A stretch of DNA of 64,000 bases from Nitrospina sp. (GCA_024648695.1 JACAVV010000005.1:186001-250000), one strand, 5' to 3'. Positions 18,664-42,475 are shown, counted from the first letter of the stretch. The notes: generated by a model not told the origin, from the letters alone. Translations and numbers: made by a program.

Positions 18664-20526
18664 ATGAGCGATCACGAAGATCTCCCGCAAAAACCCCTTC
18701 TCATTTATGACGGTGATTGCGACTTTTGCCGTAGATGGATCGCCTCATGGAACCGATTAAAGGATAGATCAATAAGACACGCGCCCTACCAGGAAGTGGC
18801 TGATCAATTTCCGGAAATTTCACAAGTCGAGTTTAAATCTTCGGTCCATTTGATTGATGAATTCGGCCAGCGATTCTCAGGAGCAGAGGCGGTATTTCGC
18901 CTGCTTTTGAAAACTCGATACAGATGGCTATATTGGGCTTACGAAAAGGTACCTGGATTTTCCACGGTATCTGAATTCGTTTATGGCTTTGTAGCCCGAC
19001 GGCGCTCCCTGTTTTCTTTTATAACCCGTTTGCTGTTGAGTTCGGGTTCCAAAGAATCCACCTATTATCTGACTGGCCCGATTTTTTTACTGGCTTTGGC
19101 CATCTGTTACCTGACCGCGTTTCTTTCGTTGGCAGTGCAGATCGAAGGCCTGGTGGGGGAACAAGGAATTTTACCTGCGCAAAGTTTCCTCGACCGTGTC
19201 GAACAAAAATTCGGGTCGCCTCCCCTTTGGAAACTACCGACCGTTTTCTGGCTTGGAGCCAGCGACAAGGCGTTGCGGCTCGTTTGTTATGCAGGCGCCA
19301 TGCTCGCCCTGCTGGTTCCCTTTGCTGTAGCTACACCCTGGGTTCTTTTTTGCCTTTGGTTCCTGTACTTGTCCTGTTTTAAAATAGGAGGAGTGTTTCT
19401 GGGCTTTCAATGGGACATCCTTCTGCTCGAAGCCGGGTTCCTCGCCCTGTTTTTCAGTCCCTGGACCCTTCTACCCGGGCGGGCACGACAAGTGCAACCA
19501 CCGACACCCGTCCTGTGGCTCTATCGATGGTTGTTGTTCCGATTGATGTTCAGTTCCGGAATCGTGAAACTGAAAAGCGGTGATACAGCCTGGCATGATT
19601 TAACCGCCTTACAATTTCATTTCGAAACGCAACCCCTACCCAGTTGGGCGGGATGGTATGCCCACCAGTTACCCGACTGGACCTTAAGCGCAATGGTAGC
19701 TGGCGTGTTTTTTGTTCAACTGGTTGTACCTTTGTTCATCTTCGTTTCACGTCGTGCACGGTTTTTGGTGTTCATCATTTTTGTCGGATTCCAGACATTG
19801 ATAGCCGTCACCGGCAACTATGGTTTTTTCAATTTGCTGACCGTGGCTTTATGCCTCCTGCTTCTTGACGATTCTCAATTAAAAAGTTTGATGCCAGATT
19901 CGATCAAAAGACTTGTTTCGTATTCAGCCATTGTCCAAACCCCAGAATCCAAATTTCAGAAAATCTCGGTGCAAATTCTAACTCCGGTGATTTTATTCTT
20001 AACAATCACCATGCTGGTTTTCCAGTTTGGTGATCGTACAAAGGTTCCTGATTTTATTAAAAAGGCTTTTGGCCATATGCAGTCCTTTCAACTGGTCGGG
20101 AACTATGGCTTGTTTGCGGTCATGACCACCACCCGGCCCGAAATAATCATTGAGGGAAGTGCAGACGGTAAAACCTGGAGGGCCTACAGTTTCCATTGGA
20201 AGCCGGGTCCTTTGGATCGCGCGCCTCGTTTTGTCGCTCCGCACCAGCCGCGTCTGGATTGGCAAATGTGGTTTGCGGCGTTGGGAAACTATAAGAGTAA
20301 TCCCTGGATCTTGAATTTCATGACCCAACTATTAAAGGGAACAAAGCAGGTTAATGGGCTTCTGGAGGGGAACCCCTTTTCAAATGAACCACCCAAATAC
20401 ATTCGAGCGGTTTTATACCGCTATCACTTCACGGATTGGAAGGACAAAGAACAAACCGGGAACTGGTGGAAACGCAAGCGCCTGAGCCTGTACGTCCCCT
20501 CCATGAAATTGCGGACTCGATCCTGA
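18664..20526 (+). CDS. DCC-family thiol oxidoreductase fused to lipase maturation factor
   Basis: The 620-residue fusion protein begins with a DUF393/DCC domain (about 10-115) with the redox-like motif YDGDCDFCRRW. This is followed by a multi-spanning lipase-maturation-factor region (about 135-400: LVGEQGILPA, FRLMFSSGIVKLKSGD, LTALQFHFETQPLP, GNYGFFNL) and a C-terminal soluble part (about 450-600: LVGNYGLFAVMTTTRPEI, WFAALG). LMF1 in animals is an ER membrane protein needed for folding disulfide-containing lipases. A bacterial counterpart with a fused CxxC-type domain suggests oxidative folding of exported proteins, although the function is not proven. AGGAGAGG precedes the ATG. Confidence 0.88.
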   Translation: MSDHEDLPQKPLLIYDGDCDFCRRWIASWNRLKDRSIRHAPYQEVADQFPEISQVEFKSSVHLIDEFGQRFSGAEAVFRLLLKTRYRWLYWAYEKVPGFSTVSEFVYGFVARRRSLFSFITRLLLSSGSKESTYYLTGPIFLLALAICYLTAFLSLAVQIEGLVGEQGILPAQSFLDRVEQKFGSPPLWKLPTVFWLGASDKALRLVCYAGAMLALLVPFAVATPWVLFCLWFLYLSCFKIGGVFLGFQWDILLLEAGFLALFFSPWTLLPGRARQVQPPTPVLWLYRWLLFRLMFSSGIVKLKSGDTAWHDLTALQFHFETQPLPSWAGWYAHQLPDWTLSAMVAGVFFVQLVVPLFIFVSRRARFLVFIIFVGFQTLIAVTGNYGFFNLLTVALCLLLLDDSQLKSLMPDSIKRLVSYSAIVQTPESKFQKISVQILTPVILFLTITMLVFQFGDRTKVPDFIKKAFGHMQSFQLVGNYGLFAVMTTTRPEIIIEGSADGKTWRAYSFHWKPGPLDRAPRFVAPHQPRLDWQMWFAALGNYKSNPWILNFMTQLLKGTKQVNGLLEGNPFSNEPPKYIRAVLYRYHFTDWKDKEQTGNWWKRKRLSLYVPSMKLRTRS

Positions 20527-27079: not shown

Positions 27080-28423
27080 TTATATCGGGAAACAACGCTC
27101 AAATTTCTTTAATAGAGACCAAGATCCTTTTATCTTGATTTTTCCCATTAGAAGTGCCGGTACAATGGATCGCTCCCTTCGCAAATATCCAATCCATACC
27201 CGGCTATCCGCTCTCACCCAAACATCCGGATTTTCCGTACTACCTTCTTTAACCCGCAAGGTTTTTTGGCGAATCTCTATAGTGACTTCCACCTTTTCTT
27301 CACCGGCGAAAGAAAATCCGAAAACGGCATTCAATCCCTGAGACTGATTTTGATGAAACACGTGAGGCAGGCTTTTCAGAAAGCTTTCGATGGATACAGG
27401 CCGCAACCCGCTCGGGACCCGCTTGACTTTTTTTTGCGGAAAATATTTTTTTACATGGTCCTCCGCATCAGAGTTTGCGGTGACATACACCTCCTCCTTG
27501 AATCTGGTTAAGGGCTCGACCACTTCTTTCAGGAATTGCTTTTTATTTTCCAGCCAGGTTCCGATCACATCCTCACCGGCCGGGCAGACCGCCAGACAAT
27601 AGGCGGCTTTGTAGTTGGGTCCTTTCGCAAGACTTTGCCACCAGGACACACCTTCGGAATCACTCACCTTGCTTCGCAAATCCAGAGCATTCCGGCTGTC
27701 GGCAATCTGTTCGGTAAAAGTTAAAAAGCCCCCTAAAAATTCGCGGTAATTATGAGTGTAACACGAGGAAAAATTAAAATTTCCATCTGGGGCTATGGCA
27801 CCCACAGGGCAGGCGGCAACGCAAAGTTTGCATTCAAGACAGGGGTTGTATTCGATCGGAAAGGTTTCTTCTGAGACCGGACAATCGATCAATAAGGTTC
27901 CCAATAAAATAAAATTGCCAAACCTGGGATGGATCACGTTGCGATGAATCCCCATACGGCCAAGTCCCGCCGCAATTGCAATGGGCTTATGCGACACCAT
28001 CCACATTCTGGATGGGTATTTTTGCGTCTCCATGGGGAATCCCATTGAAGGATACATGCCCCGAACACCAGAGGCGGACAAGGTTTTGATGATTTTCCGG
28101 GCGACACCTTCAACTTCGTCTCCCGCATGATGAAACTCGACATTGGCAATCGATCGTTGCGGCGCACGAATATTGTCCGGATTCATGCGAATAATGAAAC
28201 TGATCAAATACTTTGTACGGGGAAATGCCGATACTATGTCCTCGCGTTGATCGTCCAGTTCAGATCGGTCGATTGCGACAAACCCCACATCATCGGCACC
28301 CGCTTCCAGACAGAGACGCCGCAACCAGGAGGCAGGAAGCGGTTCTCTTGCAAGGACAGTTGTGCTCTCCGTATTTTGCGAGCGAAATGTTTTTACGGTG
28401 GGGTGGTTTTCTAAACGGTTCAT
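27080..28423 (-). CDS. QueG/reductive-dehalogenase-like Fe-S protein fused to SCP2 domain
   Basis: The 447-residue protein starts with a QueG-like region (about 25-190: GADDVGFVAID, VSHKPIAIAAGLGRMGIHRN, FGNFILLGTLLID). A 4Fe-4S ferredoxin motif C-L-E-C-K-L-C-V-A-A-C-P follows at about 197-208, with further cysteines in YCLAVCPAGED that may complete a second cluster. Residues about 345-447 resemble an SCP2 sterol-carrier domain. The epoxyqueuosine reductase family uses cobalamin and two clusters; the lipid-binding domain makes a tRNA substrate unlikely here. It is the third gene of the MarR operon, 11 bases after the membrane protein. GAGAG precedes the ATG. Confidence 0.8.
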   Translation of the reverse strand: MNRLENHPTVKTFRSQNTESTTVLAREPLPASWLRRLCLEAGADDVGFVAIDRSELDDQREDIVSAFPRTKYLISFIIRMNPDNIRAPQRSIANVEFHHAGDEVEGVARKIIKTLSASGVRGMYPSMGFPMETQKYPSRMWMVSHKPIAIAAGLGRMGIHRNVIHPRFGNFILLGTLLIDCPVSEETFPIEYNPCLECKLCVAACPVGAIAPDGNFNFSSCYTHNYREFLGGFLTFTEQIADSRNALDLRSKVSDSEGVSWWQSLAKGPNYKAAYCLAVCPAGEDVIGTWLENKKQFLKEVVEPLTRFKEEVYVTANSDAEDHVKKYFPQKKVKRVPSGLRPVSIESFLKSLPHVFHQNQSQGLNAVFGFSFAGEEKVEVTIEIRQKTLRVKEGSTENPDVWVRADSRVWIGYLRRERSIVPALLMGKIKIKGSWSLLKKFERCFPI

Positions 28424-29801: not shown

Positions 29802-31571
29802 TCAGATTCCTATTTGAATAGGTGAAGGATTGTTTTCCAGTGGCAGGATATTTCCGTCCCAAAGCACCCCCAACACGTTACGGCCTCCTAGTTCCTGAGC
29901 CACTTCTATAACGTTTTGAAAGCCATCGATATGATTGTTCGCTAGGGGAACCAGAATATAATCGTAGGTGCAGGATCTCAATTCCTCAACGAGGTCTGGG
30001 ACAAGGGTGTCTACTGAAAAAAACCCTTCTCCGTAAGAATGAAAACGTCCGGCAAAAGGGCTAGATTTGAATTCGCCAATCATGGAATCCTGGCCCAACA
30101 GGTCCGCTCGAATGCTCCGGGACTCTGACAGGCTTTCCAGAATCAAGTGGATCATCCACGGGCGTACGCTTCTTAGCAGTAAAACCCGAGCACCGGTGGG
30201 GATCGAATCCATTGAAAACGCATTTTCGGAATTTTTACAGGCGGCTTCTTTCCCGCGATCAAAGGCGGACAAGGCTTCCTGGAACATAGCCTGAATGGAC
30301 TCACGTGGGTAATGGGGATAGTTCACCACCACTTTGCCGTTACCGTCGTATTCTTCCCAAGGGGCGTTTTCCACAATCCAGCCATTCTTTACGGCTTCGT
30401 TGAAGAAATCGGTTCCCGGTTGGGGCGTGTTGATCGATACCTGAATCTCGTCGAGCAAACCTTGTGAGGAGAGATCATAAATCAGGTCTACGGTTTTTTG
30501 ATCTTCTTTCCTGGAAGACCCGACGCCACCCATGCTGAAGGTGGCGTAGAACATCAACCCCAGTTGCTTGCCGTGAGTCAGGATACGGTGCATTTTTTTC
30601 GGATCGTGCTTCTTGCCAAGAGTCATCCGCTCAGCCACCGCATCGCTTGCGGTTTCGATTCCGAACCGGATTTTGTAATAGCCCGCTTTGGCCATTTCTT
30701 CCATCGCCTCTTCATCCAGCGAATGGTATTCGCACATGGCTTCGTATTTCAAATCGTGCAAACCCGCTTCGCGAATCGACCGCGCCAGTTCAATATTGAA
30801 ACTGCGCTTGATGTTATGCACCTCTTCATCAAAGAAGACGCCTTCCATTTCGGGATATTTTTGCCGCAGGGTCCGGATTTCCTCCACCACGCTGGCTACA
30901 TTACGCGGACGCCAATTCAACTCGTCGTAATACAGGGTGGCCGCCGCGCAGAAATTGCAACGGCGCGGGCATCCTCTGGAGGCGTACATCTGGATCTGGC
31001 GATAATGGCAGTTGGGCTCATGGTATTCGAGCCGTGACACATCATCATCTTCGGGAAAAGGCAGATCGTTCACATCCAGCAATTCCCTTCGGGGGTTCGG
31101 ATACACTCCGGTAATCGTTTGGGGTGCCTGGCCTTGCACCAACTCCAGAACGGCATACTCGTACTCACCGATACAAACATAGTCAGCGGTCTTGAGAACC
31201 TCCTCTGGTTGCGCCATGGGATGCTGGCCCGTAAAAATGAGCCGGGTTCCAAAAGCTTCCCGCACTTTTGCGGCGAGACGAAGGTCTTCCCTCAAAGTCC
31301 GGGTCGAGCTTTCCATAATCAGCCAATCGGGAGCCTCTTCGGCGATGTGCTGGAAATAGGTCTCCACGCACCAGGCCTTCAGGACGCCGTCAAACATTCT
31401 AACTTTGTGTTTGGTTTCCCGCTTGAGCAGGGAGGAGGTGTAAGCCAACTGCCAGGGATAATAGCCGCAGTTGGTAAAGTTTTTAACTCCTAACGACCAG
31501 CGCGAGGGCACGTGCACCATGTGGTAGCCTTTTTGATCGACTCCCACAGAATTAGCAACGACGATGTTCAC
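29802..31571 (-). CDS. B12-type radical SAM protein with half-GT9 C-terminal domain (A)
   Basis: This 589-residue protein has three parts. Residues about 1-150 look like a degenerate cobalamin-binding Rossmann domain without the DxHxxG motif. Residues about 190-430 form the radical SAM barrel, with C-P-R-R-C-N-F-C near 202. Residues about 455-589 resemble the N-terminal half of heptosyltransferases (ARVLLLRSVRP start). A GTG start is supported by GGAGG directly upstream. It shares its whole architecture with the protein at 32211-34031. B12-dependent radical SAM enzymes often methylate unactivated carbons; the sugar-transferase-like tail suggests a lipid-linked saccharide or LPS-like substrate. 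That is inference. Confidence 0.82.
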   Translation of the reverse strand: MNIVVANSVGVDQKGYHMVHVPSRWSLGVKNFTNCGYYPWQLAYTSSLLKRETKHKVRMFDGVLKAWCVETYFQHIAEEAPDWLIMESSTRTLREDLRLAAKVREAFGTRLIFTGQHPMAQPEEVLKTADYVCIGEYEYAVLELVQGQAPQTITGVYPNPRRELLDVNDLPFPEDDDVSRLEYHEPNCHYRQIQMYASRGCPRRCNFCAAATLYYDELNWRPRNVASVVEEIRTLRQKYPEMEGVFFDEEVHNIKRSFNIELARSIREAGLHDLKYEAMCEYHSLDEEAMEEMAKAGYYKIRFGIETASDAVAERMTLGKKHDPKKMHRILTHGKQLGLMFYATFSMGGVGSSRKEDQKTVDLIYDLSSQGLLDEIQVSINTPQPGTDFFNEAVKNGWIVENAPWEEYDGNGKVVVNYPHYPRESIQAMFQEALSAFDRGKEAACKNSENAFSMDSIPTGARVLLLRSVRPWMIHLILESLSESRSIRADLLGQDSMIGEFKSSPFAGRFHSYGEGFFSVDTLVPDLVEELRSCTYDYILVPLANNHIDGFQNVIEVAQELGGRNVLGVLWDGNILPLENNPSPIQIGI

Positions 31572-31584
31572 GGATTTCCTCCGC

Positions 31585-32193
31585 TCAATAGGGCAGGCTG
31601 ACTTTTCCCGAACCGGTTCCGACGGAAGAAAGTTTAAATTCGGGTTCCTGTTCGGCCTGGGAATCTTCCTGACGGTTAAACACTTTACGATAGCACCATT
31701 CCAAAACGAGCCCTAAAGTGATCATGAGGAAAAGAATCAATGTTGCAAAAAAGTTCAGCGCTATCCAGAACAATGAGGTCCGCTCCAGTAAAAACTTTTT
31801 GAATATGGATCCAGGGGTCAGGCAAACCTTTTTGCCCTGCGGATTATAACCCCTCAATTCAGGAGCGCCCGACAAGGCGATCAAAATATCGATATTGGAA
31901 TAACCCAGACCGTGATCGATATTATAAAGCGAAACCGCCATATCAAACTTTCGTTCCCGCAACTGCCGGATCGCATTCAACCCCAGGTTGAAAACCGTCA
32001 TCCGGCGAACCCGGTCGGAAAGCGGGATCACATCATTCACCTGTGGATGGGCGCGCAGGGATTCTTCAGCCACAGCGGGGGCCAGAACGGTAATCTTTGA
32101 ATTCGGAAACTCGTCCTTCAAAGATTGCAGAGTGGCGTTCAAAACCAGGCTGGCAGAGCGAATGACCAGTATGTTTTTTTCAGCAGGTTTCAT
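31585..32193 (-). CDS. Membrane-anchored half-GT9 domain protein
   Basis: The 202-residue protein begins with a segment matching the N-terminal domain of ADP-heptose:LPS heptosyltransferases (GT9): KNILVIRSASL, LKDEFPNSKITVLAPAVAEE, HPQVNDVIPL. The C-terminal donor-binding domain of GT9 is absent. Instead a transmembrane helix (about 140-165) leads to a polar tail. In GT-B enzymes the N-terminal half binds the acceptor, so this could be a membrane-bound acceptor-recognition or scaffold protein. It sits between two radical SAM genes that carry the same half domain, separated by 13 and 17 bases, clearly one operon. Confidence 0.72.
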   Translation of the reverse strand: MKPAEKNILVIRSASLVLNATLQSLKDEFPNSKITVLAPAVAEESLRAHPQVNDVIPLSDRVRRMTVFNLGLNAIRQLRERKFDMAVSLYNIDHGLGYSNIDILIALSGAPELRGYNPQGKKVCLTPGSIFKKFLLERTSLFWIALNFFATLILFLMITLGLVLEWCYRKVFNRQEDSQAEQEPEFKLSSVGTGSGKVSLPY

Positions 32194-32210
32194 GGATATC
32201 TTTTAAATTC

Positions 32211-34031
32211 TCAAACAGCCGCTGTTTCACTTGCCAAAGGCCAATGCGAGCGCCCTTGATCGCCTGGATTTTCCAGGTCGAAAATTTTTCCTTCAATATT
32301 GATCGCCACCAGTTTCTTGATGCCCAACGAATGGGCCAGGGCTTTTACATGCGCGTAGCCGTTTCCGGAAATGTTGTTGAAGGGAATCACACCGAGAGAA
32401 TAACCGCGCCGTTTTTGATTTTCCAGCAAGGCATTGGGAAAGGCTTCTGGATTGAAGTGGCCTTTACCGTAAATCAGAACTTCATCAATCTTTGGATTTG
32501 AATTCAATTCTTCTTCCACATCGGATTGCGCCAAAACGGTCAGCTTGCATTTTTCATAACTGTGGCGCAGGGAATCTATCACATGGTTCATTTGTTTCAT
32601 CCGCGTACTTCGAAACACCAAAACTCTTTCGGGAGTTTCGATATCCAGCGATTCAAAAGTATCCTTCGCAGTAATGGAGTAACGGTGGTTGAACCCTTTC
32701 TCATAGGCCTTTTCCGCTTCACGGAAGTTGGTCATAATCTGTTCAGCGCTATATCCCGGCTGATCGACCACCACGCAGTTGCCCCCATCGAAATGTTTCC
32801 AGTCCAGGTCACGCAGGTATTTATTTTCCTTCGCCCAGTTATAATAAGGAGTGCCCGGTTGCGGGGTGCTGATGGATAATTGAAATCGCCAGAGTATTCC
32901 CTCATCAATCATTTCATTAATCATGGCGATGGTTCTCTTGTCGCAATCATCCGTAGCTTGCTGGCCGCCAAAAGTGAAAGTACCGTAAAACTTGAGTCCG
33001 ATACTCGTACCATAACGCATCAACTGCCTGAGGCGAGGCACATTAAATTTTTTCATCAACTGCATGCCCTCAGCGGCAGGTTGGCCCGCGGTTTCGATAC
33101 CCAACCGCACCATGTAATAGCCCGCACTTCGCATCGCGTTCAGCACTTCCTCGTCGAGGGGCCATTGCCCGCACATCACATCGTAGCGTAAATCGTCGAG
33201 TCCGTTTTCGCGGATAGCCTTGGTCAGATCCAAAATGTATTTTTTGCTTCCATTATGCACCTCTTCATCAAAAAAGATGCCTTCCATCTGCGGGTATTTT
33301 TCGCGCAGGGTTTGCAACTCGTAGACCACGTTTTCCGGATTACGCGGCCGCCAGTTGGGCCGCTCGTAGGAAATATTGCCGCATACGCAAAAGGTGCAGG
33401 AAAGCGGGCACCCTCTTGAAGCGTAAGCCTGAATTTCCAGGTATTCACTGGAAGGTTCCCCCGGCATGCCGTAATCCAGCCGTGAGACATCGTCATCTTC
33501 CGGTAACGGCAGATCGTTCACATCCAGCAGGGGTCGAATGCCATTCGGGTACAATCCGACGATATCATTGGGATCCTTTCCCTGAACGATATCTCGGCAC
33601 ACCAGTTCGTATTCACGCGACACCACAAAATCGGCATATTCCGCAACCTCGTCGGGAAACGTGGTGGCATGCGGACCACAAAATATAAGCTTCGTTCCGA
33701 ACCGTTTTTTGATTTCTTTCGCGAAGCGGCTGTCGGCGGCGATCGTCCGGGTGGCCGAGTCCATGATCAAATAATCCGGTCCGAACTCCGAAACCTTGTC
33801 AACGAAGGTGTCATGATCCCATTTTTTAAGACAGCCATCGAAAAATTTCACCTCATGGTCGGTGTCCCGCTTCAAGATCGAGGAGCAATAGGCCAACTGC
33901 CAGGGATAATAGGTAAAAATGCTTAAATCCTTACTGCTATTGGTCCAGCGGCTGGGCGAGTGGATCATGGCATAACCGTCTGCATCAATCCCAACCGAAT
34001 TGCAAACGGCGACTTTTTTAGAAGGTATCAT
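32211..34031 (-). CDS. B12-type radical SAM protein with half-GT9 C-terminal domain (B)
   Basis: This 606-residue paralogue of the protein at 29802-31571 has a similar start (VAVCNSVGIDADGYAMIHSPSRW against VVANSVGVDQKGYHMVHVPSRW, each split), radical SAM motif C-P-L-S-C-T-F-C near 207, and a C-terminal GT9-like half domain (about 470-606: ERVLVFRSTR, CKLTVLAQSDVEEEL, NPKIDEVL). The ATG at 34031 is chosen because it aligns with the paralogue's start; an upstream ATG adds 31 unrelated residues. It is the first gene of the three-gene operon. Two such enzymes could act on successive positions of one substrate. Confidence 0.82.
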   Translation of the reverse strand: MIPSKKVAVCNSVGIDADGYAMIHSPSRWTNSSKDLSIFTYYPWQLAYCSSILKRDTDHEVKFFDGCLKKWDHDTFVDKVSEFGPDYLIMDSATRTIAADSRFAKEIKKRFGTKLIFCGPHATTFPDEVAEYADFVVSREYELVCRDIVQGKDPNDIVGLYPNGIRPLLDVNDLPLPEDDDVSRLDYGMPGEPSSEYLEIQAYASRGCPLSCTFCVCGNISYERPNWRPRNPENVVYELQTLREKYPQMEGIFFDEEVHNGSKKYILDLTKAIRENGLDDLRYDVMCGQWPLDEEVLNAMRSAGYYMVRLGIETAGQPAAEGMQLMKKFNVPRLRQLMRYGTSIGLKFYGTFTFGGQQATDDCDKRTIAMINEMIDEGILWRFQLSISTPQPGTPYYNWAKENKYLRDLDWKHFDGGNCVVVDQPGYSAEQIMTNFREAEKAYEKGFNHRYSITAKDTFESLDIETPERVLVFRSTRMKQMNHVIDSLRHSYEKCKLTVLAQSDVEEELNSNPKIDEVLIYGKGHFNPEAFPNALLENQKRRGYSLGVIPFNNISGNGYAHVKALAHSLGIKKLVAINIEGKIFDLENPGDQGRSHWPLASETAAV

Positions 34032-34355
34032 AATCTCAAAAGATAGGTCGATTCGGGCTTGCGTCCCGGGTTCGAGGTTAATCGAAAAAATACTTGATGT
34101 TTTCCAATACCGAACAGAATCCATGCCCGCACGGCGCGTGATTATTCAGTCCCGCCGTACGTTTTCTCAGGCCAGTGGCCGATGTTTTGATTCTATGACT
34201 CGTAACGGCTGAAATCAAACAAAACTTTAGATTTGAGGCCTATTGAGACGGTTCGCCCCCCGGTTTCTGCAGGGATGCCTTGTAAAAAGAAGCGCGTTTC
34301 TATAACATAAATATCCATCTGAATTTTTTAAAACAACCGTTGGAGCGTTACCATA
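34032..34355. other. Divergent intergenic region before ftsY
   Basis: About 320 bases between the radical SAM operon and ftsY. No gene is supported. A possible ftsY promoter, TTGTAA with TAACAT 17 bases later, lies near 34277-34305. The 93 bases nearest the radical SAM gene are in frame with it and could belong to a longer form. Confidence 0.4.
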
Positions 34356-36136: not shown

Positions 36137-36967
36137 TTAGCGCGTTACTTGATTCATTAGTTTCGGTTTCCTTGCCAACAAATTGAAGGTGTTTTGAGTG
36201 TGCAATATGGAGTTGGTCAGGAAAGCGGGAAAGGCATGGCGGCGGGCGCAGTATTTTTTTAGTTCTGTGATTTCCATGTTGCATGACTTTAATACTTCGA
36301 CAACTCGGTGGGGATCGATGCCGCCTTGCTGGCGTTGGAAATCGGCCAGGTGGTAGTCTTCTTCGAAAATGGGGATGTTGAGTCTGTTCATTGCGCGTTT
36401 GTAATACCACTCGTCGATTTGGGCGATCCAGCGGTGAAACTGGTAGCGGATGGGGGAATCGATATCCTGCTTCAGGGGCTCGAAGAAGACCAAAAACCAT
36501 CCGCCGGGATTTAACTTTTGCACGAATTGTTCTATGGCTTGATCATAATCGTAGAGGTGGTGCAGGAGGGCAGACAGGACTATCGCGTCGTAAGTGTTGG
36601 AATCGTTTTCGGCGAATTCCAATACGTCGGCTACTTCCAGACGGGAACGGGTTTTTGCCTCTTTGGGCACATTTTTTTTGAGAACGTCGATCAATTCTTC
36701 GGAAAGGTCGACTCCAGTCATGTCAAAGCCGCGTTTTAAAAACTCCAGATAGAGGTAGCCGGTGCCGCATCCCAGGTCGAGGACTTTTGCTTCCCTTTCC
36801 GGAATCTGGTTGCGTATATAGCGGACGGTGTTTTTGAGGATTCGTGTCTGGTATCGGTTGGTTTGTTCAGGATGGCGATTAAGGTAAAGCGATCCTTCCT
36901 TAGCGTGGACGCGTCGGTTTTCTTCCAGAATTTTCTGTTTCAGTTCTTCAGTTTCTGTTGGGGGCAT
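36137..36967 (-). CDS. Class I SAM-dependent methyltransferase
   Basis: This 276-residue soluble enzyme has motif I VLDLGCGTGYLYLEF (about 80-94), the acidic motif II GVDLSEEL, and IVLSALLHHLYDYD after strand 4. It resembles the UbiG/Methyltransf_11 type acting on small molecules, lipids or glycans. The N-terminal 70 residues are charged and helical. It lies between the PilZ gene and the glycan radical SAM cluster on the same strand as the latter, so a role in modifying the same product is possible. No clear ribosome site is seen. Confidence 0.82.
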   Translation of the reverse strand: MPPTETEELKQKILEENRRVHAKEGSLYLNRHPEQTNRYQTRILKNTVRYIRNQIPEREAKVLDLGCGTGYLYLEFLKRGFDMTGVDLSEELIDVLKKNVPKEAKTRSRLEVADVLEFAENDSNTYDAIVLSALLHHLYDYDQAIEQFVQKLNPGGWFLVFFEPLKQDIDSPIRYQFHRWIAQIDEWYYKRAMNRLNIPIFEEDYHLADFQRQQGGIDPHRVVEVLKSCNMEITELKKYCARRHAFPAFLTNSILHTQNTFNLLARKPKLMNQVTR

Positions 36968-37020
36968 GTGGAGAATGGTTAAACTTTCTATTTGAATTTA
37001 CTCGGTAAATATTTAAATGT

Positions 37021-37084
37021 GGGCCTTCGGCTTTTTTATTTCCCCCTCACCTTGATCCTCTGCCTCCAGGGGAGAGGATAAAGT
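37021..37084. repeat. GC-rich hairpin repeat, copy d
   Basis: It begins with GGGCCTTCGGC, identical to 5365-5375, and continues through a C-rich block to the inverted repeat ATCCTCT/AGAGGAT around CCAGGGG. It separates the methyltransferase from the next gene. Confidence 0.55.
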
Positions 37085-37102
37085 ATCTTTTACTGGGATA
37101 AT

Positions 37103-37987
37103 TTAACCTTTAGCAGAAACCGACGGAAAGAAGAACCGCCGCTCGGCCTTGCTGGTGGGGCATTCGTTGCAATCGGTGCAGGTATCGGGAAACTCGCCTT
37201 CCACATGCATTTTGCGCAAGGACTCCATTTCTTTCGCCTGCCACAAATCCATGACGCGCTCTTCCCAGGCATTGCCCAGTTTCAGGGTCGCATTGTAATC
37301 GACGCAACAGGGGATGACTGTTCCGTCCCACAACACAACAAGCTTGCCATAGTCCTTGCCGAACAGTTCGGGGCACACTTCGTCACGAGGCGCCCGTACC
37401 AGTTTTTGCTGGGTGCGCACGTGATCTACAATTTCTCCCCAATAGGAGATAAATTCATCGACATCGCCCTCCGTACCTTCGTCGACGGTGAACACAACGC
37501 CCATACTGAGTTCCGGCCGTTCCTTGTCCTTGAGCGCTTTCAACTTGCGGATACTGGCTTCGATTTTATCCAGTTCCACGCCCCGGATTTTCTTGAAGGT
37601 TTCTGCGGAGCCATCGATGGAAAAACGAATGATGTTCAGGGGACTGTCCACGATCTTTCGAATCATTTTGTCGCTCAACAGGGTGCCGTTGGTGTTCATC
37701 ACCACCCAGTTCACGCCTTTGTTGTGGGCGTATTCGATCATGTCGAAAATTTGTTTGTGCAGAAGCGGCTCGCCCCAATTGTGCATGCACAGGTGTTCGA
37801 GTCCGGGACTGTCATCCACGATTTTTTTGAACAGGTTCAAATCCATGAACCCGCCCTCGCGCGTCATGCCTTCGGTGACAAAACAGAAGGTGCAACGCAA
37901 GTTGCAGGTATTGGTCGGTTCAATGATGAGAGACGTTAAATTCTTTATCGCGGGAGCCGGATTGATTTGTTGGGGTTGGACACTCAT
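37103..37987 (-). CDS. Radical SAM/SPASM protein
   Basis: This 294-residue protein has the radical SAM motif C-N-L-R-C-T-F-C (Cys28, 32, 35), the GEPLLH strand and a C-terminal SPASM-like set of cysteines: VIPCCVDYN, then CTDCNECP near 270. SPASM enzymes carry auxiliary 4Fe-4S clusters and act on peptides, sugars or cofactors. The ATG at 37987 is used because it falls 17 bases after the GT2 stop; a TTG thirteen codons earlier would overlap that gene. It belongs to the operon running from 42475 down to here. Confidence 0.85.
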   Translation of the reverse strand: MSVQPQQINPAPAIKNLTSLIIEPTNTCNLRCTFCFVTEGMTREGGFMDLNLFKKIVDDSPGLEHLCMHNWGEPLLHKQIFDMIEYAHNKGVNWVVMNTNGTLLSDKMIRKIVDSPLNIIRFSIDGSAETFKKIRGVELDKIEASIRKLKALKDKERPELSMGVVFTVDEGTEGDVDEFISYWGEIVDHVRTQQKLVRAPRDEVCPELFGKDYGKLVVLWDGTVIPCCVDYNATLKLGNAWEERVMDLWQAKEMESLRKMHVEGEFPDTCTDCNECPTSKAERRFFFPSVSAKG

Positions 37988-38003
37988 TAATTTTAATGAT
38001 CCT

Positions 38004-38936
38004 TCATGATTCAATAATTTTTTCAATCACATAACTCGGCCGGCCCTGCACCTGGAAATGGATACGGCTCAAATATTCTCCCAAGATTCCCATGCAAAAC
38101 AAATGCACACCCGCAAAAAAGGAGAAGATTGCCGACAACAAAATGAATCCTTCAATGAGGATTCCATTATAAAACCGCTGGTACAACAAAAAAATCACAA
38201 GGAGGAAACCTAGTACCGCGCTTCCAAATCCCAGATACGTCACCAGGCGCAACGGAAAACTCGAATAACCGGTGACCATATCCCAAGCCAGTGATATCAG
38301 GGCCAGGATACTGTATTTCGTTTGCCCGATTTGGCGTTGATGATGCTCGACTTCAATTTCGACGGTTGGTACTGAAAGCCAACTCATCAAAACCGCCATG
38401 TAGCGCGAACGGTCGGAACAATGATCCACCTTTTCGATAACGCTTCTGCGCATAGCGCGGAACGAACTCAGGTTGATGTGGCACCGCTTGCCTAAAATCG
38501 AGCGTCCGATCCACTTTAAAAACCGCGATCCCCACACCCGCAACTGACTGTCGCGCCGTACCCGGGACACGGTGGTCACCAGATCGACATCGTCTTTCAT
38601 TGCCGAGATCAGTTTGGGGATTTCTTCTGGGGGATGCTGTAAATCCGAGTCGAGTTGAACGATGATCTCTCCCCGGCTGTTTCGAAACCCTGCCAAAACC
38701 GCCGCCTGCTGACCGAAATTGCGAGTCAGCTGAATCACACGCACCGCCGGATCCTCCGCTTGCATTTGGATCAATTGCGGAACCGAATCGTCGCTACTGC
38801 CATCGTCAACGAAAACGATTTCATAAGAAGACCCCTGGGCCTCGCACACGGCCTTCAGGCGCTTGTATAAATCCGGGAGGACTTCCTCCTCATTGAAAAC
38901 GGGGACTACGATTGAGAGTTCAACCCCGTGGGCCAT
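38004..38936 (-). CDS. GT2 polyprenyl-phosphate glycosyltransferase (GtrB/ArnC-like)
   Basis: This 310-residue enzyme has an N-terminal GT-A domain: SIVVPVFNEEEVL, the VDDGSSDDS loop, QLDSDLQHPPEE (the DxD-type metal site) and the QRQIGQTKYS motif. Two C-terminal transmembrane helices follow (about 232-255 and 268-290). This is the layout of GtrB, DPM1-like and ArnC enzymes, which load a sugar onto undecaprenyl phosphate at the inner membrane. Its start overlaps the end of the upstream radical SAM gene by 31 bases, so the two are co-translated. The sugar cannot be told. Confidence 0.92.
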   Translation of the reverse strand: MAHGVELSIVVPVFNEEEVLPDLYKRLKAVCEAQGSSYEIVFVDDGSSDDSVPQLIQMQAEDPAVRVIQLTRNFGQQAAVLAGFRNSRGEIIVQLDSDLQHPPEEIPKLISAMKDDVDLVTTVSRVRRDSQLRVWGSRFLKWIGRSILGKRCHINLSSFRAMRRSVIEKVDHCSDRSRYMAVLMSWLSVPTVEIEVEHHQRQIGQTKYSILALISLAWDMVTGYSSFPLRLVTYLGFGSAVLGFLLVIFLLYQRFYNGILIEGFILLSAIFSFFAGVHLFCMGILGEYLSRIHFQVQGRPSYVIEKIIES

Positions 38937-40318
38937 GGATTCGTCATTCTCAGCATGGTTAAAAATTTCTTCGCCAACAAACCTTTGGCGGGTGTGGTTT
39001 TGTATATAGTCCAGGCCCGTTTGGGCGTGAAGTAAAACCGGCGGTACGCTTTCTTTTGCATGTCGACCAGTTCCTGCGTCTCGACCTTACTGGAGTTGCT
39101 ACTGATGGCATCAATGGAATACTGGCCGAAACTCTTGTTGGCCTCCTCACCTTCCTCAATCACCATACTGCGCAGTTCCGTGCCCGGATTGGGAATGACC
39201 AGCGAAAACAAGGCCGTGCTCAAATCAAGATCGCAGGCGAATTGAATCGTCTCTTCCATCTCCTCGCGCGTCTCTCCCGGAAAGCCAAGCATGAAGAACC
39301 CGTTGACACTTATATTGGCCCGCGACAATTTGCTGACCACATCCTTAAGTATCGTGATGTCGAGACTCTTCGAGATCATCTTCTGGATACGTTGCGACGC
39401 GGTCTCAATTCCCAAAGCCAGCCGGTACACTCCGGCGGCCTTCATTTTTTTGATCATTTCTTCGTCGATAAAATCGGCACGCACGCCGTTCGGGAACGAT
39501 ATCTTCATCTGCAATCCACGCTCGACGATCATGTCAAAAACCTTGTTGGCTCTGGGCATGTTGATATTGAAGACATCGTCAACAATATGAAACTCCTCGA
39601 CGCCATAGGTTTTTTGCAAAAATTCAATTTCATCCAGAACCACTTCGGGGGAACGAAACCGGATGCTTTTACCAAAGATGTCATGGCAGTAAGTGCAAGT
39701 GAAGGGGCACCCTCTCGAGGTCACCAGTGGCATGAAGCGCTTGGAGGTCGGCAGATATTCATGGGAACAGTCGAACTCGAAATAACGCGGGACATCCAGC
39801 AAATCGTATTCCTGATAAAGTGTGTCCAAGTCTTCAATGGCTTCGCGTGGCGAAGTGGTGATGTATTGCTCATCCTTCTTATAAGCAATTCCCGGAACCT
39901 CATTGACATCCCCTCCCCGGTCCAGAGTATCTAACAACTCGACGATGGTGATTTCACCCTCGCCCACCACCATGAAATCAACATGAGGGTCGTGCAGAAT
40001 GAATTGCGGTTCGTGTGCACAGTGAGGTCCGCCAAAGATCACATGCGCTTGGGGGGCCAGCTCTTTCACCTGTTTTGCCAGGTCAAAGGCATCGTCACTT
40101 TCTATGGTCATCAAACCGATACCAACAGCGTCTGGCTGGTATTCGGCAATCACCTCCGCCAGGTCTCTGTCCGGATCGGATGAAAGCCGTAAGTCCAGAA
40201 TCATGACCGGGTGGTCGGCCCGTTTTAAAACCGATCCGATAGCCAAAAGCCCCAAAGGCATCACCTTGGACATGTTTCCTTTAGGTGTGGCTTTGGGTCT
40301 CAACAATAATGTTTTCAT
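38906..40318 (-). CDS. B12-binding radical SAM protein
   Basis: This 470-residue protein is a standard B12-type radical SAM enzyme: an N-terminal Rossmann domain (PLGLLAIGSVLKRADH, DAVGIGLMT, VIFGGPHCAHEPQFI) and a barrel with C-P-F-T-C-T-Y-C at about 204-211, then VDDVFN and FFMLGFPGET. It resembles the hopanoid, bacteriochlorophyll and antibiotic C-methylases and cyclases of this class. The DxHxxG motif is not seen. GGGAG lies nine bases before the ATG, and a small CCCGG/CCGGG hairpin precedes that. It overlaps the GT2 gene downstream, suggesting that it modifies the lipid-linked sugar or its polyprenyl carrier. Confidence 0.87.
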   Translation of the reverse strand: MKTLLLRPKATPKGNMSKVMPLGLLAIGSVLKRADHPVMILDLRLSSDPDRDLAEVIAEYQPDAVGIGLMTIESDDAFDLAKQVKELAPQAHVIFGGPHCAHEPQFILHDPHVDFMVVGEGEITIVELLDTLDRGGDVNEVPGIAYKKDEQYITTSPREAIEDLDTLYQEYDLLDVPRYFEFDCSHEYLPTSKRFMPLVTSRGCPFTCTYCHDIFGKSIRFRSPEVVLDEIEFLQKTYGVEEFHIVDDVFNINMPRANKVFDMIVERGLQMKISFPNGVRADFIDEEMIKKMKAAGVYRLALGIETASQRIQKMISKSLDITILKDVVSKLSRANISVNGFFMLGFPGETREEMEETIQFACDLDLSTALFSLVIPNPGTELRSMVIEEGEEANKSFGQYSIDAISSNSSKVETQELVDMQKKAYRRFYFTPKRAWTIYKTTPAKGLLAKKFLTMLRMTNPWPTGLNSQS

Positions 40319-40483
40319 ATATAGGGTCTCCCCCGGATTTTACCGGGCAAGGGGAAATTTAATAGCACTACAAGTGCAAAATTTTAGCAAAGGGGTGTCA
40401 GCGTTACAAGGCTAATCTCCGGTTTCCCTTTATTTTTAAAACACTTAGCACATGCAACGGATGCAACCAGACATCCAATTCCA

Positions 40484-41743
40484 TCATGGTTCAACCGTCT
40501 GTGGCGACCGGGACAGGCCGCAGGCTTCTTTGGGTCCCGCACCCGCAGTGGTTAAACCCGGAACTTTATTCAAATCAATTTTGGCGACATTTGCATCCAC
40601 GGGAACCGTGGTTTGACCGATGTACTCCGATTGGCAACAGCCCAGACAGCCTGGAAAAATTTTTTCCTGTTTGACCCTGTTGCGAAATTCTTCATAACGA
40701 GGATCTCCGTTCCAGCGAATATCGCCACCGTTTTCGAGAATATTGCCTTTGCGAAAATGCGGGCAACTGAACACATCCCCATACGCTGAAACACCCACTT
40801 TGGCCCAGGGAGAAAAACAGCGGTAATCCTGATACGAACTTTCGTTTCTATAATACCGGACAATTTCGTCGTTGGTGATGCCGTTGGGGGAAAACCGCAA
40901 TTGGGTTTTGAACCGTTCGCCAAGCGTGGAAAGCTTTTCCAGTTCACTTTGTAAAATATGCGGATCGATTTCTTCCACAGGGGGCGCAGGATTCATCAAT
41001 TGGTCTTCCTGCTCGTAGTCCTTGCCATGCCAGTAGGTGGCGGGGTTGCTGAGCACCAGATTGTAGACATCGACTCCCAGGCTTTCGGTGTATTCGTATA
41101 AAGGTACCAAATCCATCACGTTATTTTTGCCGATCACGCAGGTGACATGCACCATCGGGTAGCGCCCACCGGTTTCTCTGCGCTTTCGAATGATGCGTTC
41201 GAGTCCCTGAGTCGATTTGCGATACGATCCCTGTTGCGTGGTGATGGCGTCATGCAGTTTTTCCGATCCTTCCAGCGACACACCAATGAAGAACAGTCCC
41301 GGACGCCAAATCGCCGTCGAGCGGTTTTGAAAGATGCGATCTACCGTGGCTTCGGTGAGTGTGGTTCCATTTGTAATCACATGCACCTTGTTACGTTTGG
41401 CGGCAAATTCGAGAATCTCCCAAAAGTCCTGCTTCATGAAAGCCTCGCCGCCGGTGAAGGTAATCACCGTAAATCGAGGCAAAGAGGCGATAGCGGTTTT
41501 AATTTGGTCAGCGGTCAATTCCTGGTTGTATTTCCGGCCCGATTCGGTTTCCTCTATGATTTCAAGGAAATGGCACATATCGCAACGCAGGTTACACCGG
41601 TACGTGACCTCAAAGTACGCATGTATGGGCGGAAAGGCAAACTTCGGGTAGAAGTAATAAGGCAACGCGCTATACACCTGTGGCATGATCTTCTGCAGGT
41701 TCTTGATACTGAACAATTTTCCCAATCGAGTGAGGGTCGTCAT
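40484..41743 (-). CDS. Radical SAM/SPASM protein
   Basis: This 419-residue protein has a radical SAM motif C-N-L-R-C-D-M-C (Cys50, 54, 57), TFTGGEAFM and VITNGT. The C-terminal region carries SPASM-like cysteines: YRCFSPWAKVG, VFSCPHF, and CLGCCQSEY near 390. The central region (FLEIIEETESGRK after the cluster) is long. It follows the WbqC gene by 15 bases and so belongs to the same operon. The substrate is unknown; other SPASM enzymes of glycan loci include epimerases, dehydrogenases and aminoglycoside-type enzymes. Confidence 0.85.
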   Translation of the reverse strand: MTTLTRLGKLFSIKNLQKIMPQVYSALPYYFYPKFAFPPIHAYFEVTYRCNLRCDMCHFLEIIEETESGRKYNQELTADQIKTAIASLPRFTVITFTGGEAFMKQDFWEILEFAAKRNKVHVITNGTTLTEATVDRIFQNRSTAIWRPGLFFIGVSLEGSEKLHDAITTQQGSYRKSTQGLERIIRKRRETGGRYPMVHVTCVIGKNNVMDLVPLYEYTESLGVDVYNLVLSNPATYWHGKDYEQEDQLMNPAPPVEEIDPHILQSELEKLSTLGERFKTQLRFSPNGITNDEIVRYYRNESSYQDYRCFSPWAKVGVSAYGDVFSCPHFRKGNILENGGDIRWNGDPRYEEFRNRVKQEKIFPGCLGCCQSEYIGQTTVPVDANVAKIDLNKVPGLTTAGAGPKEACGLSRSPQTVEP

Positions 41744-41758
41744 TGTAACTCGGTTAAC

Positions 41759-42475
41759 TTATTCTGGGCCTGATGACCGGCCTTGCCGGAGCACGTCCAA
41801 ACTGCGGTCGCCGTGATTGAACATCAAATCGACTACGGACAAATAGGGGACAAAGCCGGGATATTGTTGTATATATTCCGGATGTTTGTATCCATGATAT
41901 TCTAATTCAACCTGATGTTCTATAAAAACTTGAGGATCCAGGTAATCCGCCGACTTGTCTCCCGTAAGATAATGAGTCGCCTCCAAAGCGTCGCATATCC
42001 TGATGATCTTGTCCCCTTTCGCGCCACCCGCATTCAAATCCGAGGATTTTTGGGTCGGCGTGTCGATTCCGAGGGCGGACCGTAAATAGTCCAGCGACTC
42101 GTAACACAGGTCGACCAGGAATTCCCATTCTTTATTATATATCGACTCGAACCGGGGAAAATAAAGATCAAAGTAAGGCGCCTTGCGATAATGATGGCGC
42201 AAACTCTCACAATGCTTACTGCGCCAACTGACTGAATTGTCAATCCGCGTGTCCCTCAGTGATTGTTCGAAACGTTTTTTCTGGAGAACGGGAACAGTGA
42301 GCCAGGAACTGCCCTCGGAGGTTCGGATGCGATTGCGATTGCGCCAATCGCGACGCGTGAACTGGACGTCATCCAGGTAAACAAAGCGGTCAGCCCAAGC
42401 CATCTGGTCCATAAATCCCAGCCAGGGCAAATAGGAAGGTTGTAATATAACGAGACGAAGGGGTGGTTTGTTCAA
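41759..42475 (-). CDS. WbqC-family protein
   Basis: This 238-residue protein matches the WbqC family from its opening LVILQPSYLPWLGFMDQMA, followed by DDVQFTRRDWRNRNRI, WLTVPV and the late HQVELEYHGYKHPEY. WbqC proteins are found in O-antigen and other surface-glycan clusters; their chemistry is not settled. A TTG start is supported by AGGA eight bases upstream. It is the first gene of the operon of radical SAM and glycosyltransferase genes. Confidence 0.88.
   Translation of the reverse strand: MNKPPLRLVILQPSYLPWLGFMDQMAWADRFVYLDDVQFTRRDWRNRNRIRTSEGSSWLTVPVLQKKRFEQSLRDTRIDNSVSWRSKHCESLRHHYRKAPYFDLYFPRFESIYNKEWEFLVDLCYESLDYLRSALGIDTPTQKSSDLNAGGAKGDKIIRICDALEATHYLTGDKSADYLDPQVFIEHQVELEYHGYKHPEYIQQYPGFVPYLSVVDLMFNHGDRSLDVLRQGRSSGPE

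Follow-up and report, generated by a model that had tools for sequence, protein, structure and literature searches.

A GT9 heptosyltransferase N-terminal lobe shared by two predicted B12-type radical SAM enzymes and a membrane-helix protein in Nitrospina sp.

Introduction

Cobalamin-type radical S-adenosylmethionine (SAM) enzymes form a large group most of whose members are unassigned, and a main clue to their substrates comes from their accessory domains. The present analysis concerns three consecutive genes, here called A, B and C and together the triad, which occupy positions 29,802 to 34,031 of a 64,000-nucleotide stretch of the genome of Nitrospina sp. (GCA_024648695.1 JACAVV010000005.1:186001-250000; this whole stretch is hereafter the window). 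The Nitrospinota are major marine nitrite oxidisers. The products of A and C are predicted B12-binding/radical SAM proteins ending in a domain related to the N-terminal lobe of GT9 heptosyltransferases, and the product of B consists of such a lobe followed by a long membrane helix.

In GT-B glycosyltransferases the acceptor is bound in the N-terminal lobe and the donor in the C-terminal one, and Asp13 of WaaC is the proposed catalytic base (PMC5713226). Among radical SAM enzymes, HpnJ makes a cyclitol ether from hopanoid-linked glucosamine, its substrate being the lipid-linked sugar BHT-glucosamine (PMC12583986), and AprD4 is a diol dehydratase acting on an aminoglycoside sugar (PMC5461906). 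The class 1 cobalamin-dependent enzymes OxsB, TsrM and TokK, which bind cobalamin base-off and with no His ligand, combine, as A and C do, a cobalamin-type Rossmann domain with a radical SAM domain and a further, C-terminal one; however, this last domain is a helical bundle in OxsB, which those of TokK and TsrM resemble (PMC13331322), whereas in A and C it is the GT9 lobe. With the heptosyltransferases WaaC, WaaF and 3tov the triad has the N-terminal Rossmann lobe in common by profile and by fold, but it lacks their donor lobe and catalytic Asp, and its lobe has either a radical SAM core or a membrane helix joined to it.

Genes and the shared domain

The three genes follow one another on the same strand, A and B being 17 nt apart and B and C 13 nt apart, and comprise the following features, given with the evidence for each (ORF, open reading frame; N-lobe, N-terminal lobe):

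32211..34031, minus strand: gene A, B12-binding/radical SAM protein with C-terminal GT9 N-lobe, 606 aa (ORF, Pfam, NCBIfam, conservation)
33387..33410, minus strand: CxxxCxxC [4Fe-4S]/SAM motif of A, C208-C215 (sequence; invariant in 35 A sequences)
32262..32636, minus strand: GT9 N-lobe domain of A, residues ~466-590, catalytic Asp replaced by Gln480 (hhalign; Q480 in 35/35)
31585..32193, minus strand: gene B, lone GT9 N-lobe and long membrane helix, 202 aa (hhalign, PDB profile search, AlphaFold, Foldseek)
31816..32184, minus strand: GT9 N-lobe domain of B, residues 4-126 (hhalign, AlphaFold, Foldseek)
31657..31815, minus strand: long helix of B with membrane segment, residues 127-179, hydrophobic peak ~146-164 (AlphaFold model, hydropathy)
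29802..31571, minus strand: gene C, B12-binding/radical SAM protein with C-terminal GT9 N-lobe, 589 aa (ORF, Pfam, NCBIfam, conservation)
30948..30971, minus strand: CxxxCxxC motif of C, C201-C208 (sequence; invariant in 33 C sequences)
29811..30194, minus strand: GT9 N-lobe domain of C, residues ~460-587 (hhalign, AlphaFold, Foldseek)

The longest ORF of A extends to an ATG at 34124, but alignments with relatives begin near residue 4-6 of the 606-aa protein. The start codon of C is GTG, preceded by GGAGGAAA.

Pfam and NCBIfam models detected nothing convincing in the C-terminal ~130 residues of A and C, nor did Pfam in B, and the Pfam GT9 model PF01075 (247 positions), searched genome-wide, had no match in A, B or C or elsewhere at the locus. 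Residues 17-91 of B match the NCBIfam models of heptosyltransferase III (1e-4) and II (6e-4), in the N-terminal quarter of the models. Comparison by hhalign of family alignments built from relatives, with E-values referring to single pairs, connected the three domains both to GT9 (B 3e-16, A 3e-12, C 1e-4) and to one another (A-C 4e-23, A-B 2e-17, C-B 5e-11); the controls, reversed profiles and the SDR, GT2 and NeuB families, gave 0.02 or worse. By means of these controls a chance Rossmann-fold resemblance was rejected. Chance resemblance to GT9 is excluded for the domains of A and B; the GT9 link of the C domain rests on the homology that connects it to A and B, together with its predicted fold.

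A search of all PDB sequences with the profile of B returned the GT9 protein 3tov at rank 1 (0.0017) and WaaF (1psw) at rank 3 (0.96); no GT9 protein was matched when the fused domains by themselves were the query. B and the C domain were folded individually with AlphaFold, at a predicted local distance difference test score (pLDDT) of 85 for both and a predicted template modelling score (pTM) of 0.70 and 0.82, respectively. In Foldseek searches of 350,542 chains, 1psw and 3tov occupied ranks 1 and 2 for B (8e-6, 1e-4) as well as for the C domain (3.5e-3, 2e-3), with TM-scores below 0.6 and E-values that for the C domain are modest (2e-3).

The donor (ADP-heptose) lobe, with the equivalents of Lys192 and Asp261, is absent from all three proteins: A and C terminate after the first lobe, and B runs on into the membrane helix. 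The position of the GT9 catalytic Asp is occupied by Gln in 35/35 A sequences and by Met, Phe or Leu in 33/33 C sequences, and in B the loop is shortened; the Asp of the GD motif is kept in all 28 GT9 proteins from the same genomes. Because the donor lobe is missing and the catalytic Asp is lost, A, B and C do not appear to be glycosyltransferases, and their identification as ordinary GT9 enzymes was rejected.

These results agree closely with the sequence-only reading of this DNA. Its coordinates for three consecutive genes are reproduced by the ORF calls, and its proposal of one GT9 N-lobe common to them, C-terminal in two B12-type radical SAM proteins and in the third unfused but accompanied by a membrane helix, is borne out by the concurrence of hhalign, PDB profile search and AlphaFold/Foldseek. 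Structure prediction and fold search, which it had named beforehand as the check, found the B and C domains to be related to GT9 folds, so that the unrelatedness which would have counted against it did not appear, and the sequence ends together with the model of B confirm its statement that the donor-binding half is missing throughout.

The strand C-terminal ends are the ligand-holding side in GT-B lobes. Seven residues of the fused domain are invariant in 45 sequences, and five of the seven fall at most 4 residues after strands (p 5e-4). Invariant residues include R467, R470, Q494, N545 and G550 in C and R474, R477, Q480 and N553 in A. In the model of B, residues 127-179 form a helix, and the hydropathy maximum is at least 1.84 in all 41 B sequences.

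The radical SAM core

The Radical_SAM domain of Pfam is found above cut-off in both A (1.9e-8) and C (8.8e-14), and the B12-binding domain scores 4.6e-7 in A, 2 bits below its cut-off, and 1.7e-8 in C, above it. The three Cys of CxxxCxxC are unchanged across all A (n=35) and all C (n=33) sequences, and an invariant Arg (R95 in A, R91 in C) lies, as placed by eye, roughly at the end of strand 3. The top-scoring curated family for the core is HpnJ (TIGR03471; E 1e-36 and 5e-43), but the scores of 127 and 148 bits miss its cut-off of 577.6 bits, which no gene anywhere in the genome reaches. A and C thus share with HpnJ the B12-binding/radical SAM core and their best family score, but lie far under its cut-off and bear the additional GT9 lobe, and the fusion of core and lobe also occurs in genomes without a hopene cyclase; for these reasons A and C were rejected as true HpnJ. 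The RiPP (ribosomally synthesised and post-translationally modified peptide) enzyme ApyD is also among the better NCBIfam scores for the core.

By sequence, the nearest solved structure to C is AprD4 (6fd2, 5.6e-10), which acts on a sugar and belongs to an aminoglycoside pathway; to our knowledge it has no GT9 lobe. We infer that A and C belong with the cobalamin-type radical SAM enzymes around HpnJ and AprD4, radical activity and cobalamin use being predicted from sequence.

Distribution and gene context

A genome-neighbourhood survey, likewise suggested in the sequence-only reading, found A-B-C beside ftsY to be kept across ~44 of 77 Nitrospinota genomes, in which the triad is present whole or in part. 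The order A-B-C was seen in 29 of the 33 loci of a contig scan, and the remaining 4 stop at a contig edge. Genus g8 and several others have no triad, and in family f3 (G006, G009, G021) B and C alone are present at the locus. In G005 (L107:8853-10624) the front of A is fused, just past CxxxCxxC, to the rear part of C, with loss of B and an interrupted reading frame; the fused A/C frame is attributed to a deletion, and the triad appears to be decaying. Beyond the order, the only B-like protein is a lone lobe of 187 aa in G043, a genome of another Nitrospinota family (L127:7839-8399), which lies near an aldehyde dehydrogenase-like gene and has no adjacent radical SAM gene.

Outside the phylum, 387 genomes, mostly of other lineages, were searched, and full-length homologues of 41-47% identity over residues ~1-580 were found in nine (G104, G138, G208, G222, G279, G284, G345, G359, G386). 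Compared with the C-terminal domains of A and C, theirs give 2e-35 and 4e-40. They are mostly single genes in sugar loci with no B nearby, and their neighbours include PseG, HddA-like, HddC-like and GmhA-like genes (L117), HldE and a GmhA-like gene (L120, L121), a NeuB-like gene (L119), Fcl (GDP-fucose synthase), an aminotransferase and an epimerase (L113), and WbuZ/HisF2 (L116). One out-of-phylum genome carries two radical SAM-GT9 lobe genes, one of them split across two frames (L116:8447-13578). A plasmid search gave generic radical SAM matches alone, each covering <80% of the query. The architecture had earlier been called one without a described precedent, which holds in so far as no paper on it was found among open-licence papers; however, the fusion is not confined to the triad, given the single-gene versions elsewhere.

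A GT2 gene lies immediately downstream of the fusion in four of these nine genomes (L113, L114, L117, L118) and nearby in L119, and the five GT2 proteins are mutually 43-71% identical. Their Nitrospinota orthologue shows 44-51% identity (292-341 bits, the next paralogue reaching 127 bits) and adjoins a PseG-like gene in 3 of the 5 loci inspected (L133, L134, L135), just as PseG adjoins the fusion in L117. Across the 77 genomes, 32 have both triad and GT2, 12 the triad only (including the broken one of G005), one the GT2 only (G018) and 32 neither, a co-occurrence for which the Fisher test, ignoring relatedness, gives 1.5e-10, and 2.7e-7 within the order.

Relatives of the core and origin of the fusion

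In a tree of the core, A groups with L116 (98/95) and C with L115 (95/89), both with fair support, L115 and L116 coming from one other family. Since the tree pairs A and C with different relatives, a simple duplication inside Nitrospinota was rejected; judged from these sequences, either the A/C split would be older than Nitrospinota or both genes were transferred. The proteins of a distant clade (L125, L126) end in a GT9-like domain of their own (5e-9 to GT9), and the fusion may be old, with losses, or may have arisen twice. The members of this clade, at L125:8912-10759 and L126:9708-11564, are B12-radical SAM proteins whose GT9-like C-terminal domain is a separate one, and a GT4 gene stands beside the former.

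Other relatives (L108, L109, L111, L112) have a core 41-44% identical to that of C, and their loci also contain GT2, GT4 and methyltransferase genes, but they carry TPR as C-terminal module in place of the GT9 lobe. At L109:7845-10730 the TPR is followed by a GT2, so that radical SAM core, TPR and GT2 stand on one chain of 962 aa.

Neighbouring genes

Elsewhere in the window, a second radical SAM-rich cluster (36137-42475, minus strand) comprises a methyltransferase, a radical SAM/SPASM protein, an ArnC-like GT2, a B12-radical SAM protein, another radical SAM/SPASM protein and a WbqC-like protein, and looks like one for glycan or glycolipid tailoring. Positions 27080-28423 (minus strand) encode a 4Fe-4S protein similar to QueG and reductive dehalogenases whose C-terminal part is an SCP-2 sterol-carrier domain. 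At 18664-20526 (plus strand) a putative thiol-disulfide (DCC) domain, recognised by eye, is followed by a membrane part resembling lipase maturation factor.

Discussion

A link of the radical SAM-GT9 lobe enzymes to glycans is well supported. The proposal of the sequence-only reading that the radical enzymes have a glycan substrate is backed by the gene context outside the phylum and by the co-occurrence with GT2, and the similarity to HpnJ and AprD4, together with the loci of the TPR- and GT2-type relatives, argues that A and C act on sugars. The interpretation given in that reading is thus supported in part, its acceptor-recognition module and its lipid-linked or LPS-core-like substrate being candidates. 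The best explanation overall, held at a little less than even confidence, is that A and C alter a sugar belonging either to a cell-surface glycan or to its carrier-bound precursor, with the dead GT9 lobe docking the acceptor. The modification, e.g. methylation, dehydration or epimerisation, would proceed via the 5'-deoxyadenosyl radical and possibly cobalamin; the lobe, incompetent for transfer and conserved at its strand ends, would hold the glycan acceptor for the radical core, and B, in which a membrane helix follows the lobe, would serve to collect both enzymes, or else the acceptor, on the inner side of the membrane. Both the chemistry and the docking role are deduced from domain content and conservation. 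As A and C form distinct subfamilies, they probably carry out two modifications, successive or alternative.

One could also regard the lobes as assembly modules which pair with one another, B anchoring a two-enzyme complex and the lobe having no ligand role. One operon with three copies of the domain, one of them on a membrane helix, and the loss of both catalytic residue and donor lobe would fit such an arrangement, but the out-of-phylum fusion is a single gene without a neighbouring B, and the best-conserved residues of the fused domain sit at the ligand-side strand ends (scored along the chain, not on a 3D surface), so that this explanation seems unlikely, if still a serious competitor. That A, B and C remain glycosyltransferases which obtain a donor lobe from another protein is very improbable indeed: the lobe is clearly a GT9 half, and seven other GT9 genes are present in the genome, but A and C no longer have the lobe's own Asp and B has a shortened loop, in contrast to the intact Asp of 28/28 GT9 proteins.

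Tailoring of hopanoids, in which the HpnJ-like A and C would modify the polar head of bacteriohopanepolyols, is suggested by the top family score and by the presence of squalene-hopene cyclase in the genome and in most of the phylum. However, the HpnJ cut-off is reached by no gene of the genome (A/C 127-148 against 578 bits), the cyclase is found in the triad-free genus g8 and others as well, and it is absent from 9/9 out-of-phylum fusion genomes (G284 has a fragment far below cut-off), so hopanoids are unlikely as the common substrate and the explanation as a whole is improbable. Marginally less probable still is the action of the core on a protein or peptide, with the lobe recognising a glycosylated protein; ApyD among the better family scores points this way, but the gene context is one of sugar biosynthesis, and no precursor peptide or RiPP gene was noticed near the triad or its homologues, where no systematic search was made.

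Several observations weigh against glycan modification with a docking lobe. The triad in Nitrospinota adjoins ftsY and housekeeping genes and no glycan or lipopolysaccharide locus (loci inspected gene by gene), and the survey of gene context in the nine genomes had no random-gene control. Most of genus g9 and part of g14 have the triad but no GT2, and in G018 the reverse is true. The clustering at strand ends is weak for B alone (p 0.04), and the conserved strand-end residues of the fused lobe differ from the acceptor residues of GT9, so the ligand of the lobe may be something else. Core relatives L122 and L123 have no lobe, which is thus not essential for this type of enzyme. Lastly, since the B12-binding domain of A is marginally sub-threshold and neither the DxHxxG motif nor any other His lower-ligand motif was seen in A or C, the use of cobalamin is to be taken as a prediction.

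On a broader view, the acceptor lobe of glycosyltransferases would have become a docking module that radical chemistry can reuse: several lineages have it joined to cobalamin-type radical SAM enzymes, and Nitrospinota would have a membrane-anchored, two-enzyme form that edits sugars of lipid-linked or surface glycans; this generalisation is on the doubtful side. If glycan modification with a docking lobe is true, an Asp-less GT9 acceptor lobe would assign a substrate class, the sugars of surface glycans, to a subfamily of radical enzymes across lineages, and half a glycosyltransferase would gain a new evolutionary fate. For the Nitrospinota it would mean a surface modification that has so far been unstudied.

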